Source: Desulfovibrionales bacterium | GTDB taxonomy: Bacteria > Desulfobacterota > Desulfovibrionia > Desulfovibrionales > Desulfomicrobiaceae | DNA length: 10,938 bases | Assembly (NCBI GenBank): GCA_012727515.1 | Contig: JAAYGZ010000035.1 | Location: 1-10,938, forward strand | Direction of reading: 5' to 3' | In this document: one piece after another, positions 10 through 4,565 of the stretch | How the letters are laid out: every line of letters starts with the position of its first letter | How positions within the stretch are numbered: the first letter of the stretch is position 1 | Translations under genes and position numbers: made by a program | Notes under the pieces: model-generated | Databases searched by the model: none | The model's input: only the letters and a program-made list of their open reading frames with translations | Told to the model about the DNA's origin: nothing

Positions 10-618
10 ATGAGCGAACCACAAACGGCAATGCCTGAAAAAACAACGCCAGGCCTTTCAGACAGGGCGGGTTCTGCGTCCTCAACTGCATGGGATCATT
101 CCCGCAATCTTCATTTCAGGCCAGGCCAGCCTGCAGGAGATCAGGAAATACACAAAGTACGCCCTGATAAACATGAAGATCCTCCCCCACAGCTTCCAAC
201 CGACTCTGTGGCAAGCCTGTTCAGCCAGCGCATGATGCCCATGGCCGAGCCACAACCTGTCACCAGCGCAGCGCCTCTCTCTGAACCAGCTCTGGATCAC
301 CTGGTAGATCAGATTTTAGTTGGTCGCAGTGCTGATGGTGGACATGAAATTCGCCTGCATATAGACCCGAAAATCCTGCCTGGCACGGAAATTCGCATTC
401 AGCAAAATCAGGATGGCTCCCTGCATATACGCCTGATTTCCAATAATGCCACTTCGTTTCAGACATTGGTATCCAGTCAGGACATACTGCAACAGCGTCT
501 TGAAAATTCAGGCAGCCAGGCCCGTGTTGAAGTCAGCTCTGAGGCCGAAGCTGAACACAATGACAGTCGCAGACGCTCTCGCGGCTATATTGATCCTGCT
601 GATGAACTCCCCTCATAG
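10..618 (+). CDS. sctP: SctP-like T3SS needle-length / substrate-switch protein (FliK/HpaP-type C-terminus)
   Basis: 202 residues if it starts at the ATG at 10. Residues 1-90 are polar, rich in Pro, Ser, Gln and charged residues, with no clear fold. Residues 96-176 form a compact domain with the pattern of the FliK/HpaP/YscP C-terminus: a short helix (DHLVDQILV), two beta-type stretches (HEIRLHIDPKILPGTEIRI and DGSLHIRLI), then an amphipathic helix with QDILQQRLENSG. In known systems such proteins set needle or hook length and switch the export gate from early to late substrates. The stop lies 8 bases before sctQ, which fits the usual order sctP-sctQ-sctR. The frame is open to the window edge, and the AGGAA touches the ATG, too close for a normal ribosome site, so the true start may lie upstream. 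A second reading frame stops at 11-13, so the ATG at 10 could form an ATGA overlap with a preceding gene such as sctO. The family call rests on pattern and context and is moderately sure. Confidence 0.68.
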   Translation: MSEPQTAMPEKTTPGLSDRAGSASSTAWDHSRNLHFRPGQPAGDQEIHKVRPDKHEDPPPQLPTDSVASLFSQRMMPMAEPQPVTSAAPLSEPALDHLVDQILVGRSADGGHEIRLHIDPKILPGTEIRIQQNQDGSLHIRLISNNATSFQTLVSSQDILQQRLENSGSQARVEVSSEAEAEHNDSRRRSRGYIDPADELPS

Positions 619-626
619 GACAGAAT

Positions 627-1775
627 ATGCCTGATCATCACATTGCGCCCTTTGTTCCACCGCGCCGGGAACCTTTGCAAACGCACCTGGATAATGTTTT
701 GCTTACCCGGCAGCATCCGTGGAAATATACGTTATGGGAACACACAGTCCTGGCCCGTCCTGAGCCAGGAGCCTTTGCTTTTTCTCCTGTTGCCCATATC
801 CGTGTTCCCCAGGGCGATCAGTGTTGGTATGTAGAATTAGACAGCCTGGCCTTTATACACTGGCATCCGGCCCTGGCTGATCTTCCAGCCACCATGCCTG
901 TGCCTGAAGAACTCCAACTGGCGCTTCTTGATCTGGCCTGCGCTCCTGTGCAGACTGCTATCGCCCATTTCACAGGGCAGACATTTGAGTTTTCTGAAGC
1001 TGCATGGGGGCCTGCTCCTGTATCCTCCCCTGTGGCCGCGCTGACCCTGAGCGTGCACGCTCCTGATGCCCAGACCACTACACCGCCTTTTGCTGTACGC
1101 ATTCATGTTCCGGATCGCCAACATGCTTTATTTTTAGCTGACCGCCTCTCAACCCTGCCCCTGCGTGCTGAAAACAACCTGTGCACGCACCTGAGTGCTG
1201 AAGTGAGCACTATTGCCGGCTCCATGCCCATTACTATCGCGGAGCTGGCTGATGTGCAGCCAGGAGATGTTCTCCTGCCGCAGGACTACCACGCAGCTCA
1301 GGGCACAATTATATTGCGCCCGTGCTCCTGGCGATCAGAAAACAGAGAAAGCACCCCCTGTTATCAGGATATCAGGTGCACCATACAGGACAACCAGGCT
1401 ACCGTTGTGGCTATAACACGCACACCTAAGGAATCTGCTATGACTACTGATCCATCCACCCCGCAGACCGAAAATTCAACCACAGAGACTGCTCCGCAAT
1501 CAACTGCCACAACCGCTGATACTGCAACAATTGACACAGGCGCACTTGAAGTTGAACTCTGCTTTGAGCTTGATAGACGGCTCATGAGCATCACAGACAT
1601 GGCCGCTCTGGTGCCTGGCTATACCTTTACCCTGGGCTGCGATCCTTTGGCCCCTGTAACATTGCGGGTTCATGGCACTGTTGTGGGCATGGGTCGTCTG
1701 GTGGACATCAATGGTCTGCTGGGCGTTCAGGTTACCAGCCTGGCTCAGCCTGGAGGGCAGGATGCTGGGCTTTAA
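627..1775 (+). CDS. sctQ: SctQ T3SS cytoplasmic ring (C-ring / sorting platform) protein
   Basis: 382 residues. The ATG at 627 has AGGA at 617-620, six bases upstream and overlapping the sctP stop. The C-terminus (about residues 305-372) is a clear SpoA/FliN-type domain. It has GALEVELCFELDRRLMS, then the VPGYTFTLGCDPLAPVTLRV core, a glycine turn (GMGRLVDINGLLGVQV) and a short tail. The N-terminal 270 residues are less conserved, as is usual in SctQ. SctQ builds the cytosolic pods under the injectisome base and binds SctK, SctL and the ATPase to sort cargo. Residues 273-303 are a Thr/Ser/Pro/Ala-rich linker that starts just after an in-frame ATG with a strong ribosome site (separate entry). 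A C-terminal product like that of YscQ, SpaO and SsaQ is therefore likely. The end overlaps sctR by 14 bases, which suggests coupled translation. Confidence 0.88.
   Translation: MPDHHIAPFVPPRREPLQTHLDNVLLTRQHPWKYTLWEHTVLARPEPGAFAFSPVAHIRVPQGDQCWYVELDSLAFIHWHPALADLPATMPVPEELQLALLDLACAPVQTAIAHFTGQTFEFSEAAWGPAPVSSPVAALTLSVHAPDAQTTTPPFAVRIHVPDRQHALFLADRLSTLPLRAENNLCTHLSAEVSTIAGSMPITIAELADVQPGDVLLPQDYHAAQGTIILRPCSWRSENRESTPCYQDIRCTIQDNQATVVAITRTPKESAMTTDPSTPQTENSTTETAPQSTATTADTATIDTGALEVELCFELDRRLMSITDMAALVPGYTFTLGCDPLAPVTLRVHGTVVGMGRLVDINGLLGVQVTSLAQPGGQDAGL
1428..1775 (+). promoter_or_regulatory. Internal ribosome site and start for a short C-terminal SctQ product
   Basis: AAGGA at 1428-1432 lies seven bases before an ATG at 1440-1442 that is in frame with sctQ (Met272). 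Translation from there would give 111 residues: a Thr/Ser-rich leader of about 33 residues followed by the whole SpoA domain. YscQ, SsaQ and SpaO are known to make a short SctQ-C this way, and it pairs with full-length SctQ. The site is better placed than most ribosome sites in this window. That it is used here is an inference. Confidence 0.7.
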
Positions 1776-2415
1776 TCCTGTTTATTTTCTCATAGGCATG
1801 GCCGTGCTTGGCCTGGCCCCGTTTTTACTGATGATGGTGACCTCCTATGTTAAAATTGTGGTCGTTACCTCCTTGATACGCAATGCCCTGGGCGTGCAGC
1901 AGGTACCGCCAACCATGGTCTTGAATGGCCTGGCCATTATCTTAACCATTTTTATCATGGCCCCCATGGCGATGAAAACCACAGAATTATTAGAAACAGT
2001 ATCCATAGAAGCCAATCCTACTCCAAAAGAACTCGTAGAAATACTTCAAACTGTTGCCCCTCCCTTACGACAATTTCTTGCTGCCAATTCCAGCGATTCA
2101 GTTACGCGCGTCTTTATCAGCACAGCCAAACGCATGTGGCCCAAGGAGCTTCATGAGCACATTGCAGCAGATAATTTTTTTATCCTGGTGCCCTCGTTTA
2201 CTATTTCAGAACTGACTAAAGCCTTTCAGATTGGCTTTTTGCTCTACCTTCCTTTTGTAGCCATAGATCTTATTATTTCAAACATCTTGCTTGCCATGGG
2301 CATGATGATGGTCTCGCCCATGACCATTTCCCTGCCCTTTAAGCTACTGCTTTTTGTTACTCTGGACGGCTGGATAAAAGTCAGTCAAGGACTGCTTCTG
2401 AGTTACGCGCAATAA
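1762..2415 (+). CDS. sctR: SctR T3SS export-gate membrane protein (FliP/YscR family)
   Basis: 217 residues, the usual SctR length. I chose the ATG at 1762 because GGAGG at 1752-1756 sits five bases upstream; an earlier in-frame ATG would lie deep inside sctQ. The protein shows the FliP/SctR signature after the first membrane segment: TSYVKIVVVTSLIRNALG followed by QQVPPTMVLNGLAI. Hydrophobic segments lie near residues 9-29, 52-70, 153-178 and 190-214. The MGMMMVSP stretch (Met181-183) matches the methionine gasket that closes the SctR pore in SpaP and FliP. A polar loop (residues 72-150) separates the two membrane halves, as in the family. SctR forms the pentamer at the core of the export gate with SctS and SctT. 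Here no sctS follows: the next gene, 14 bases on, encodes a STAS protein. Start and family are very secure. Confidence 0.95.
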   Translation: MLGFNPVYFLIGMAVLGLAPFLLMMVTSYVKIVVVTSLIRNALGVQQVPPTMVLNGLAIILTIFIMAPMAMKTTELLETVSIEANPTPKELVEILQTVAPPLRQFLAANSSDSVTRVFISTAKRMWPKELHEHIAADNFFILVPSFTISELTKAFQIGFLLYLPFVAIDLIISNILLAMGMMMVSPMTISLPFKLLLFVTLDGWIKVSQGLLLSYAQ

Positions 2416-2429
2416 AAAAGGAGAATTCT

Positions 2430-2762
2430 ATGCATATTGAAAACCTGGAACAAAACGGAATCATCATTATCAAACCAGCAGGCAGCATGGATGCGACCAC
2501 CACCAGCATCTTTGTCAATGCCTGCCAGGAACAGCTCAATACAGGGAAAACCAAAATAGCCGTGGACCTGTCCGGCATTGAATATATCAGTTCCGCCGGA
2601 CTCCGTGGTGTTCTGACCATTCTCAAGGCCAGCCGCGCTTTAAGTGCCGCAGTCGCATTTTGCTGTTTACAACCCATGGTCGCAGAAGTGTTCAAAATTT
2701 CAGGATTTACTTCAATGATGACCATTACTGACAGTCTTGAAGCAGCCCTTGCCTCACTCTGA
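2430..2762 (+). CDS. STAS-domain anti-sigma factor antagonist (RsbV/SpoIIAA/BtrV type)
   Basis: 110 residues, one STAS domain over the full length. AAGGAG at 2418-2423 is six bases before the ATG, one of the best ribosome sites here. The phosphorylation loop reads DLSGIEYISSAGLRGVL (residues 47-63). Ser55, just before AGL, is the likely target of the partner kinase, with Ser54 as the alternative. Family members bind the HATPase anti-sigma protein when unphosphorylated and so free its target; phosphorylation breaks the binding. The next gene, 13 bases on, encodes such a HATPase, so this is a classic antagonist/kinase pair. Its place directly behind sctR suggests a role in T3SS control, like BtrV in Bordetella, but the target is unknown. 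No PP2C-type phosphatase (RsbU/BtrU role) is in the window. Confidence 0.9.
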   Translation: MHIENLEQNGIIIIKPAGSMDATTTSIFVNACQEQLNTGKTKIAVDLSGIEYISSAGLRGVLTILKASRALSAAVAFCCLQPMVAEVFKISGFTSMMTITDSLEAALASL

Positions 2763-2775
2763 GTTGGAGCCAGCC

Positions 2776-3192
2776 ATGCCATCCCTGACCGTGCCTGCCA
2801 GTCTGGAACAGCTTGCTCGTGTTCACGCCTACATCCGCGAGCATGTTCCGTGCGAATATGAAGAGGTACTTGGCCATGTTCTGCTTGCCGCTGAAGAACT
2901 GCTGGTCAATATATTTACGTATGCATATCAGGGCGCGCATGGCCCGGCTGAAGTGGATTGCCGCCTTGTCCAGCGCGATGGACAGAAATTTCTCTGTTTT
3001 ATGGTCAAAGACTGGGGCCCGGCCTTTGACCCTTTTCACGAGGCCCCTGCCCCTGATCTGGATCGTCCAATTGATGATCGTCCTATTGGCGGGCTGGGCA
3101 TTCATCTTATTAAACCCCTGGCCACTCATGTCAGTTATACACGCCTGCACGATGCCAATGTTGTTGAACTGTATTTTGCAAAAAGCACCTGA
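2776..3192 (+). CDS. HATPase anti-sigma factor / serine kinase (RsbW/SpoIIAB/BtrW type)
   Basis: 138 residues, GHKL ATPase fold. I chose the ATG at 2776 because GGAG at 2766-2769 is six bases upstream and it follows the STAS stop; an earlier in-frame ATG (2737) would lie inside the STAS gene. The N-box is Glu41-Leu-Leu-Val-Asn45, with both the probable catalytic base and the Mg-binding Asn present. The G1 box is Asp79-Trp-Gly-Pro-Ala-Phe-Asp85 and the G2 box GGLGIHLI at 105-112. All key positions are intact, so it should be an active kinase of the STAS partner. In the family the free form binds a sigma factor or another target. No sigma factor gene is in the window, so the target is unknown. 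The 3' end overlaps the most likely start of the next gene. Confidence 0.9.
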   Translation: MPSLTVPASLEQLARVHAYIREHVPCEYEEVLGHVLLAAEELLVNIFTYAYQGAHGPAEVDCRLVQRDGQKFLCFMVKDWGPAFDPFHEAPAPDLDRPIDDRPIGGLGIHLIKPLATHVSYTRLHDANVVELYFAKST

Positions 3193-3952
3193 AGGCCTCC
3201 TGGTGCTTGTTCTGCTTGCAGGTCTTTGTGCTCAGGGCACCACGGCTTACTGCAACCCTCGTGAACATGCGGTACATCCTGGCATTATACATGAGGAAAT
3301 CACAACCACCCAACGCCCGGCCCAGGCTCTGCATCCACTGACCTCTTCTGCCCCGCGCCAGACAGATTCCCAGGAACATACTGTGGCCCACACACCACTG
3401 CTGTGCCCGGACCAGGATGCAGAAATGGAAAACCTGCTCCAGCACATGGATGTATATGCCTTATCAGACCATGCGCACCTGCTGGCCCTGCCCCGCATGG
3501 TTTCACCGCGTATTGTCATGGAAGCAGCCCAAGGCCGCTACCACCTGCCTACACAGGCCCAGTGGCAGCCCATTATTAAAGATTCCAGCCAAATTTCTGG
3601 CCTGGACCCCTGGCTCATTGCAGCGGTCATTGCAGTGGAATCTGGTAACAACCCAGCCGCAATTTCTCCCAAAGGCGCCCAGGGTCTCATGCAGCTCATG
3701 CCAGCCACCCAGGCCTATCTTGGCCTTATTGATCCGTTTGATCCCCAGGCCAATGTTCGGGCCGGGAGCCTGTATCTTAAAGAGCAGCTGGATCTGTTTG
3801 GCTCACTGGAATTAGCTCTGGCCGCCTATAATGCCGGACCTGGAAATGTACAAAAATATAAGGGAATTCCACCCTTTGCTGAAACAAAAAACTTCATCCA
3901 TCGTGTTCTGAGCCTGTACCAGAACAGGGACAGAGCAGATCAAAACAAATAA
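3158..3952 (+). CDS. Soluble lytic transglycosylase (SLT/LysM-less, goose-lysozyme-like fold), periplasmic
   Basis: 264 residues from the ATG at 3158. A signal peptide is likely: hydrophobic run LLVLVLLAGLCA (residues 14-25), possible cleavage after TTA30. A variable linker follows, then the SLT domain at about 135-255. Catalytic Glu161 lies in AVESGNNP. The family motifs GLMQLMPAT (176-184) and AYNAGPGNV (223-231) are intact. Such enzymes cut the glycan strand of peptidoglycan, and T3SS clusters often carry one to open the wall for the injectisome. Its position in the T3SS unit fits that role. The start is uncertain: the ATGs at 3152 and 3158 have no ribosome site and overlap the previous gene, while a GTG at 3203 has GAAGG at 3191-3195 seven bases before it but gives a very short signal sequence. 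The enzyme call is secure, the start is not. Confidence 0.88.
   Translation: MLLNCILQKAPEGLLVLVLLAGLCAQGTTAYCNPREHAVHPGIIHEEITTTQRPAQALHPLTSSAPRQTDSQEHTVAHTPLLCPDQDAEMENLLQHMDVYALSDHAHLLALPRMVSPRIVMEAAQGRYHLPTQAQWQPIIKDSSQISGLDPWLIAAVIAVESGNNPAAISPKGAQGLMQLMPATQAYLGLIDPFDPQANVRAGSLYLKEQLDLFGSLELALAAYNAGPGNVQKYKGIPPFAETKNFIHRVLSLYQNRDRADQNK
3183..3208 (+). other. Hairpin over the anti-sigma stop and transglycosylase start region
   Basis: AAGCACC (3183-3189) pairs perfectly with GGTGCTT (3202-3208), leaving a 12-base loop that holds the previous gene's stop and the GAAGG sequence. No T-run follows, so it is not a terminator. It could modulate the transglycosylase start, but this is a guess from base pairing only. 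Confidence 0.35.
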
Positions 3953-3965
3953 GGATTCAGCATTC

Positions 3966-4565
3966 ATGCGACAGTATCTCATTATACTTGTGTGTGCGTT
4001 GCTCTCGGCCTGCGCGGCCGGAAATGCCAACTTCACCTATGCCCCAGGAGTTGAAAGCATTTCTGTGTGGAATGGCGAGCACATCCCCCTGGAGCGGGAC
4101 TGGCAGTACCTGGACACCACGCGCGTTTCGGTTCAGGGAACATTGTGGAATTCATATCTGCCCGTTACCGACACCATGGAGACCATGCTTTTTACTCGCC
4201 CCTCTCAGGCAGGTGAAGAAGTGCTGCTTATTTCCAGAGTGCTTAAAGTGCACGCATGGAGCACTTTTATTTTTTTGGGCGGTACCAAGGCCGAGTTGGG
4301 CACACGCTTGTATCGACATAATTTCTACGAACTGCGAGCGGATACCACAAACGCTGAATACAGAAATTATTTCAGCATCTTACAAACAGCAGGCACTGCT
4401 GTGGCAGCATCATACACAGCCGAAGTCTGGGACCGTTTACCCCTGGACACCATACTGGTCCGGGTCATGCATCTGCGCCCAGGCACAGCGGCAAACACGT
4501 TGCCAGCCTATGCCAAACTCTACCCGCAGGAGCGCTTTGAACCGCTGCTGCGTATTCGGGATTAA
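3966..4565 (+). CDS. Lipoprotein of unknown function in the T3SS unit
   Basis: 199 residues; ATG at 3966 with AAGGA at 3951-3955, ten bases upstream, and only 13 bases after the transglycosylase stop. The N-terminus is a lipoprotein signal: Arg2, hydrophobic run LIILVCALL, then the lipobox Leu13-Ser-Ala-Cys16. Residue +2 is Ala, which favours outer-membrane sorting. The mature part looks like a mixed beta-rich globular domain with Trp-containing segments (NGEHIPLERDWQYLDTTRV, VLKVHAWSTFIFLGGTKAE). I do not recognise a family. Because it closes the T3SS operon, it could act in the system, for example as a pilotin that places the secretin, but no sequence evidence supports that. An AT-rich terminator-like hairpin lies within the gene at 4245-4276. 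Confidence 0.8.
   Translation: MRQYLIILVCALLSACAAGNANFTYAPGVESISVWNGEHIPLERDWQYLDTTRVSVQGTLWNSYLPVTDTMETMLFTRPSQAGEEVLLISRVLKVHAWSTFIFLGGTKAELGTRLYRHNFYELRADTTNAEYRNYFSILQTAGTAVAASYTAEVWDRLPLDTILVRVMHLRPGTAANTLPAYAKLYPQERFEPLLRIRD
4245..4276 (+). other. Terminator-like hairpin inside the lipoprotein gene
   Basis: AAAGTGC (4245-4251) pairs with GCACTTT (4261-4267) around a nine-base loop. The right arm runs directly into TTTTATTTTTTT (4265-4276). This has the form of an intrinsic terminator but lies in the middle of a coding region, at about codon 94-104. The stem is short and only moderately GC-rich, so real termination is uncertain. Confidence 0.4.

Follow-up and report, generated by a model that had tools for sequence, protein, structure and literature searches.

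Which output is served by an RsbV/RsbW-like gene pair that lies inside an operon of structural T3SS genes? The known role of partner switches is to control sigma factors. For several of them (in Vibrio fischeri, Rhodobacter and Nostoc), the available part of PMC8256260 gives the targets as still unknown, and the mechanism of the Bordetella switch is likewise called unknown in the available part of PMC7498569.

The pair was found in the window, i.e. the whole stretch of 10,938 nucleotides analysed here, which is the whole of contig C279 of the MAG G000 (2.32 Mb, 453 contigs, about 94% complete). The gene order is sctP, sctQ, sctR, STAS, HATPase, lytic transglycosylase and a 199-aa protein, followed by genes unrelated to T3SS:

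10..618, + strand: sctP-like needle-length protein (PF09483 above cut-off, TIGR02514 below its own cut-off)
627..1775, + strand: sctQ, cytoplasmic ring (TIGR02551 above cut-off)
1762..2415, + strand: sctR, T3SS export apparatus (TIGR01102 above cut-off)
2416..2429, + strand: 14-base gap 3' of sctR with an AAGGAG ribosome-binding-like site (sequence)
2430..2762, + strand: STAS antagonist (RsbV-like), 110 aa, ATG at 2430 (profile matches, conserved residues)
2776..3192, + strand: HATPase_c_2 switch kinase (RsbW-like), 138 aa (profile matches, residues, predicted fold)
3143..3952, + strand: SLT lytic transglycosylase (PF01464), overlapping the HATPase end, start codon provisional

The 199-aa protein directly after the transglycosylase (3966-4565) is a putative lipoprotein and showed no Pfam or NCBIfam match.

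Key residues and predicted fold of the pair

The first-pass annotation had described an RsbV/RsbW-like pair with its key residues 14 bases after sctR. Boundaries, Ser55, Glu41, Asn45 and the boxes were all found as described. The STAS protein matched PF01740 (E 8e-17) and, above the cut-off, TIGR00377 ant_ant_sig (E 3e-19); the HATPase matched PF13581 (E 2e-21). The RsbW equivalog PRK04069 was not reached by the HATPase (25.6 bits, cut-off 145 bits). We placed the HATPase start at the ATG at 2776 because homologues begin there; the listed ORF of 151 aa uses an upstream TTG.

Ser55 of the STAS protein (codon 2592-2594), which we take to be the position of Ser58 in SpoIIAA numbering, is kept as phosphorylatable serine in 84 of 85 distinct STAS sequences from T3SS-linked and unlinked homologues. 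The HATPase carries Glu41 (codon 2896-2898) and Asn45 (codon 2908-2910), and the equivalents of E41, N45, D79, G105, G106 and G108 are kept in all 86 HATPases compared, again T3SS-linked and unlinked. It possesses the N, G1 and G2 boxes and a predicted switch-kinase fold. The best PDB matches of the predicted structure (18 sequences, mean pLDDT 88) were anti-sigma kinases of the SpoIIAB, RsbW and UsfX type with 14-19% identity, and by sequence the closest solved protein was RsbW 6m36 (E 5e-8). The assignment as an RsbV/RsbW-type pair inside a T3SS structural operon was confirmed at the sequence level.

Conservation of the pair within the order

We searched 348 genomes of the order for SctR. 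T3SS-type SctR (E<=1e-50) was detected in 69 genomes, and all 69 neighbourhoods were scanned. The first-pass annotation had made the link between pair and T3SS dependent on the presence of the pair in related T3SS clusters. It is present there: STAS and HATPase genes follow directly downstream of sctR on the same strand in 53 of the 69 genomes, the SctR proteins of these being 63-100% identical to that of the window. Chance is excluded as an explanation because this same order occurs in 53/69 T3SS-bearing genomes. Hereafter, type A denotes pairs directly after sctR, and type B the PP2C-STAS-HATPase-EBP kind in more divergent T3SS. In the tree, the type-A pairs form a single clade (55 sequences, support 1.0).

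The other T3SS genomes presented different pictures. The contigs of G079 and G254 end 263 and 563 bases after sctR, and in G079 the STAS gene starts before the end. The pair lies within the T3SS locus apart from sctR in G130 and G081, only on another contig in G100, and together with PP2C and EBP genes, not directly after sctR, in G186, G190, G208, G343, G344 and G345. HATPase, PP2C and EBP genes were found in the T3SS locus of G018, and no STAS gene. In G204, sctR is about 24 kb from a group of HATPase, EBP and PP2C genes, and two STAS matches are 5 kb away. Switch-type genes of G210 are on contigs other than the sctR contig, and G342 and G073 showed SctR but no linked pair.

The order sctR-STAS-HATPase-transglycosylase was also seen in N. 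vulgaris plasmids from DP4 and L2 and in an 'uncultured Desulfovibrio' MAG (L003); a third N. vulgaris plasmid (RCH1) gave a HATPase match. Judged from this context, a partner switch dedicated to the T3SS is well supported and, in our estimation, highly probable.

Two loci deserve separate mention. In G116 (L067:2166-2515) the STAS coding sequence downstream of sctR is broken into two reading frames, by a sequencing error or by real loss. In G081 (L231, L232), a small genome with a main contig of 1.46 Mb, sctQ-STAS-HATPase-SLT and EBP-PP2C are encoded in one T3SS region, about 0.75 Mb away from sctR.

A phosphatase and an activator in the second T3SS operon

The T3SS genes of pDVUL01 are arranged in two divergent runs. 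One of these goes through sctR-STAS-HATPase-SLT. The other contains sctW...sctV-S-T-U followed by the gene of a sigma-54-type activator (EBP), a small overlapping hypothetical ORF and the gene of a SpoIIE phosphatase of 720 aa with HAMP and a weak Cache match. The order sctU-EBP-PP2C was detected in G004, G007, G013, G054, G231, G092 and G236 as well, and also in G090, a fragmented genome without SctR match that has sctV-S-T-U. In the closest relative of the window's genome, G005, the EBP and PP2C genes overlap by 10 nt, and sctU is on another contig. The phosphatase had been reported as missing from the window. This still applies to the window and, for the T3SS type, to its own MAG, but relatives encode one in the second T3SS operon.

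In the order-wide searches, the best 3 candidates (PP2C) or 5 candidates (EBP) per genome were scored. On this basis, PP2C relatives (E<=1e-60) occurred in 59/69 T3SS genomes vs 83/279 others (p 2e-17, ignoring shared ancestry) and EBP matches (E<=1e-95) in 43/69 vs 22/279 (p 5e-21, likewise ignoring shared ancestry); as the genomes are related, both p-values are indicative only. Linkage says more than this enrichment of mere presence: among genomes with an EBP match, EBP and PP2C genes lie within 1 kb of each other in 36 of 43 that have T3SS SctR vs 2 of 22 others, one of the two being G090 (10 of these 22 genomes were assessed by script and 12 by reading the matches). PP2C and sctR genes share a contig in 29 genomes and are within 30 kb of each other in 28 of these. 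The PP2C gene of G081 is located 0.75 Mb from sctR, beside the rest of that T3SS. At the thresholds given, 26/69 T3SS genomes yielded no EBP match and 10/69 no PP2C match, G000 being among both.

It might be that the pair serves a stress or envelope network of general scope and that its place in the T3SS operon only provides co-expression. Related HATPases are indeed common (44 of 61 near genomes at E<=1e-3), and G012 and G003 (L134, L135), without T3SS SctR, carry a PP2C-STAS-HATPase run related to the T3SS one. With the T3SS pair forming a clade of its own, its position kept across the order and PP2C relatives enriched with T3SS (with the p-value read as above), we regard such a role as very improbable. 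Within the order, STAS-HATPase gene pairs are commonly encountered in genomes lacking T3SS SctR (L013-L018, L020-L028 and similar loci).

Domains, motif and putative sites of the activator

The linked activator of the relatives comprises an AAA+ Sigma54_activat domain and a Fis HTH. No Pfam sensor domain was found in the two EBPs scanned. The model of the G005 EBP (15 sequences, mean pLDDT 85) shows an all-helical N-terminus with a long helix at 42-100 and no globular sensor, and its 50 best PDB matches are AAA+ proteins of the sigma-54-activator type. The predicted lack of a recognised sensor domain would fit control in trans.

Instead of GAFTGA with Phe/Tyr and Thr/Ser at the respective positions, this EBP carries G[VAI]A[TS]GV. 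Ala at the Phe position was present in 28 of the 34 EBPs gathered and in all 11 taken from window-type T3SS loci, including G090 and G100. Six of the 34 have Phe, namely four from the subgroup G104, G130, G136 and G141 and two others. The T3SS loci of this subgroup encode a different EBP with canonical GAFTGA; in the two that were scanned, the N-terminus is long and gives a GAF match that stays under the cut-off. A single HATPase-EBP contact may therefore not hold for all. In one subgroup (L145:11442-13661, L148:9136-11352, L153 and L188), an EBP gene with intact GAFTGA and an sctF-like gene adjoin the T3SS PP2C gene.

The activators with G[VAI]A[TS]GV form a clade of T3SS-linked and unlinked members (L126, L127, L087, L159 and others). 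We rejected EBPs with Ala in GAFTGA as markers of partner switches, since the same kind adjoins genes for ABC transporters and SIS-domain proteins (10 neighbour proteins at 6 loci).

For DVUA0100, Kazakov et al. 2015 (PMC4641369) remarked on the motif GVATGV and nevertheless predicted regulation of both T3SS operons. By motif and place it is apparently the same gene as the EBP gene of pDVUL01. In PspF, that Phe was replaceable only by Tyr according to the available part of PMC2941729, and in a comparative study (PMC3162934) such motif defects are connected with lost activation of sigma-54 and, for some proteins, with a dependence on sigma-70. As the sigma-54 contact loop is degenerate, the EBP may contact RNA polymerase in a new way.

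Sites resembling -24/-12 elements upstream of sctW or between the divergent operons gave a weak signal, being present in several but not all type-A loci; 7 of 13 regions reached a joint p<=0.05 (both strands, without correction). G081, G186, G190 and G345 did not reach this value, and G092 and G136 were borderline. A scan of the window itself revealed no excess of sigma-54-like -24/-12 sites.

Operons with the activator in the place of sigB

In Bacillus, the gene order is rsbU-rsbV-rsbW-sigB. Five genomes with a more divergent T3SS (G186, G190, G343, G344, G345) encode PP2C, STAS, HATPase and EBP on one strand, and four of them have T3SS genes on that contig as well; the exception is G344 with a contig of 4 kb. 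Counted from the HATPase stop, the EBP gene begins at -4 nt in G190, at 3 in G344, at 7 or -8 in G343, at 8 or -34 in G186 and at 17 to 119 in G345, depending on the start codon. Between PP2C and STAS genes the gap is wider in G186 (265 nt). STAS-HATPase-EBP genes are contiguous with a divergent PP2C gene in G208 and in G209, the latter without SctR match. As far as can be read from the genes, the type-B operon is the rsbU-rsbV-rsbW-sigB order with a putative EBP gene replacing sigB.

Outside the order, 395 genomes of the phylum were searched for the EBP. Eight of these have an EBP that matches from its N-terminus (model position 1-3) with at least about 518 bits, the next match having 409 bits and starting at position 70. 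In three of the eight, belonging to other families (G451, G499, G573), the EBP gene is found with HATPase and STAS genes among T3SS genes, and in two of them with PP2C. The stretches examined around the EBP gene in the other five contained no sct gene. As a control, 21 HATPase loci (L011-L018, L020-L032) of near genomes lacking T3SS SctR were examined, and no EBP gene was detected in their flanks of about 1.5 kb.

In the tree, the type-B pairs are scattered among other pairs and are not, as a group, sister to the type-A pairs; transferring the target from type B to type A is therefore an assumption. Either the pairs were swapped or the EBPs recruited partner switches more than once; both would fit the tree. 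Repeated recruitment, if true, would favour a functional link.

The arrangement bears on the idea that the pair works post-transcriptionally, targeting the secretion machine or the way it is assembled. Its place between sctR and the transglycosylase gene would agree with this. In Bordetella, BtrU, BtrV and BtrW are all needed for secretion, none is a negative regulator, and an effect on secretion or at a post-transcriptional level is assumed for them (PMC7498569); the Bordetella analogy alone therefore predicts no anti-sigma. The divergent clusters, however, place the pair beside PP2C and EBP genes and not among structural genes, and we consider such an action, as assumed for BtrU and BtrW, rather unlikely.

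Sigma factors as possible targets

Sigma70_r2 genes were searched in 15 of the 69 T3SS genomes, a set excluding G000. No such gene was found inside the T3SS cluster in any of the 15, i.e. neither a sigma gene with the pair nor an ECF gene in the locus. In 12 of the 15, none was present on any module-bearing contig; G158 and G252 have one more than 100 kb from the module, and in G013 an ECF-sized one is situated 9 kb beyond the cluster. G231 (99% complete) and G343 (89%) contain a single Sigma70_r2 gene in all, and G054, G116, G136, G158 and G190 (83% complete) contain two.

The first-pass annotation had drawn on Bordetella and proposed a search for anti-sigma targets. A dedicated T3SS switch, kept in 53/69, stood up to the comparison; a Bordetella-like sigma target did not, and the candidate output found in its place is a sigma-54-type activator. 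The HATPase may still be a true anti-sigma holding a sigma-70-family factor encoded elsewhere (ECF or RpoD), which the STAS protein would free for the T3SS genes. This is the textbook role of the family, the closest folds (SpoIIAB, RsbW, UsfX) are anti-sigma kinases, some of them solved with a sigma factor, and possible targets are the ECF-size gene of G013 or RpoD, the latter in line with the sigma-66 target reported for Chlamydia RsbW. Against it stand the 15 clusters without Sigma70_r2 gene and the total of one such gene in G231 and two in G054, G116, G136, G158 and G190, so that we assign this role a low probability.

A proposed partner switch with an activator as output

The best single reading, to which we give marginally more than an even chance, is that the pair forms the core of a T3SS-dedicated partner switch with the linked EBP as output. 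What the genes are, their key residues, the conserved linkage, the order within operons and an EBP lacking a recognised sensor domain were observed; from these we infer the following sensing, binding, phosphorylation and regulatory steps. The membrane PP2C encoded in the second T3SS operon (HAMP-SpoIIE, in some with a weak Cache match) would sense a periplasmic or envelope signal and dephosphorylate the STAS protein at Ser55. Dephosphorylated STAS would bind the HATPase, and the HATPase would then release its target. This target would be the EBP encoded beside the phosphatase, which would activate the T3SS operons including that of the pair itself. The HATPase would thus be an anti-activator kinase and not an anti-sigma.

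Besides the anti-sigma folds, the degenerate GAFTGA, the occurrence of the same kind of EBP away from partner switches and the other EBP in one subgroup speak against an EBP output. It is quite conceivable, at a little under an even chance, that the HATPase captures and releases an EBP instead of a sigma factor, that an rsbU-rsbV-rsbW-'activator' operon is built into the T3SS of Desulfovibrionales and of several further families in the phylum, and that the degenerate-loop EBP may contact the polymerase in a new way.

An EBP in the place of the sigma gene would be one concrete, testable target class for partner switches and would link Ser/Thr partner switching to sigma-54-type activation. Such a locus would also provide the T3SS of sulfate reducers, on which little work exists, with a candidate signal input. 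The odd GVATGV activators would become testable, too; they may depend on the switch or make a different contact with the polymerase.

Comparison with known systems

The RsbU-RsbV-RsbW-SigB system of Bacillus shares phosphatase, STAS antagonist, HATPase kinase and key residues with the genes described here, and five type-B operons share its order, the EBP gene standing for sigB. In contrast, the type-A genes are split over two T3SS operons. Bordetella has partner-switch genes with its T3SS locus, too, including a SpoIIE phosphatase. According to the texts available, the btr locus differs in gene order and encodes the ECF sigma factor BtrS and the secreted anti-sigma BtrA, whereas an EBP gene and no sigma gene is found here. 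Chlamydia RsbU/V/W is another partner switch in a T3SS-bearing bacterium, but its target, as far as the available text reports, is the housekeeping sigma-66.

To our knowledge, NifL-NifA involves no STAS or PP2C partner. NifL is a GHKL-domain protein able to inhibit a sigma-54 EBP by direct binding, as is proposed here for the HATPase. It differs from the HATPase in carrying its own PAS sensors and, reportedly, in binding ATP/ADP but not hydrolysing it (PMC9866876).

DVUA0100 of N. vulgaris Hildenborough is the nearest precedent on the activator side, being a predicted T3SS EBP with GVATGV. The main text of PMC4641369, as available, mentions neither anti-sigma nor SpoIIE nor phosphatase, and the link to a switch was therefore not drawn there. 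The accessible parts of two Lawsonia papers (PMC11355991, PMC3463550) contain no mention of anti-sigma or SpoIIE either. In the open-licence literature, covered by titles and abstract starts for the closest matches, we found no paper in which partner switching is connected with an EBP as target.

The genome of the window and incomplete relatives

The MAG G000 shows, through an assembly gap or through loss, no T3SS-type PP2C (E<=1e-60), no EBP (E<=1e-95) and no T3SS SctU; the best SctU match is 31% identical and FlhB-like. Its one SpoIIE-family match is a receiver-linked phosphatase that looks general. We rejected this receiver-PP2C (on C174) as the T3SS phosphatase; it has an overlapping HATPase gene of its own. 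Similarly short PP2C matches (domain positions 8-191) recur in genus members without T3SS SctR, e.g. G001 and G012, and are read as probably the same general type.

G000, G002 and G014 possess the pair and gave neither an EBP nor a PP2C match. In G002 (99% complete), no second operon was found within 36 kb above sctC and no T3SS SctU; the pair can therefore persist beside what looks like an incomplete T3SS. The contig of G014 ends inside sctU. A full circuit in the genome of the window would be an analogy drawn from the close relative G005.

P0013 and P0014 were considered as natural fusions and rejected. In these, SctQ or STAS pieces are joined to a HATPase tail that is identical in both, and they are therefore read as assembly chimeras.
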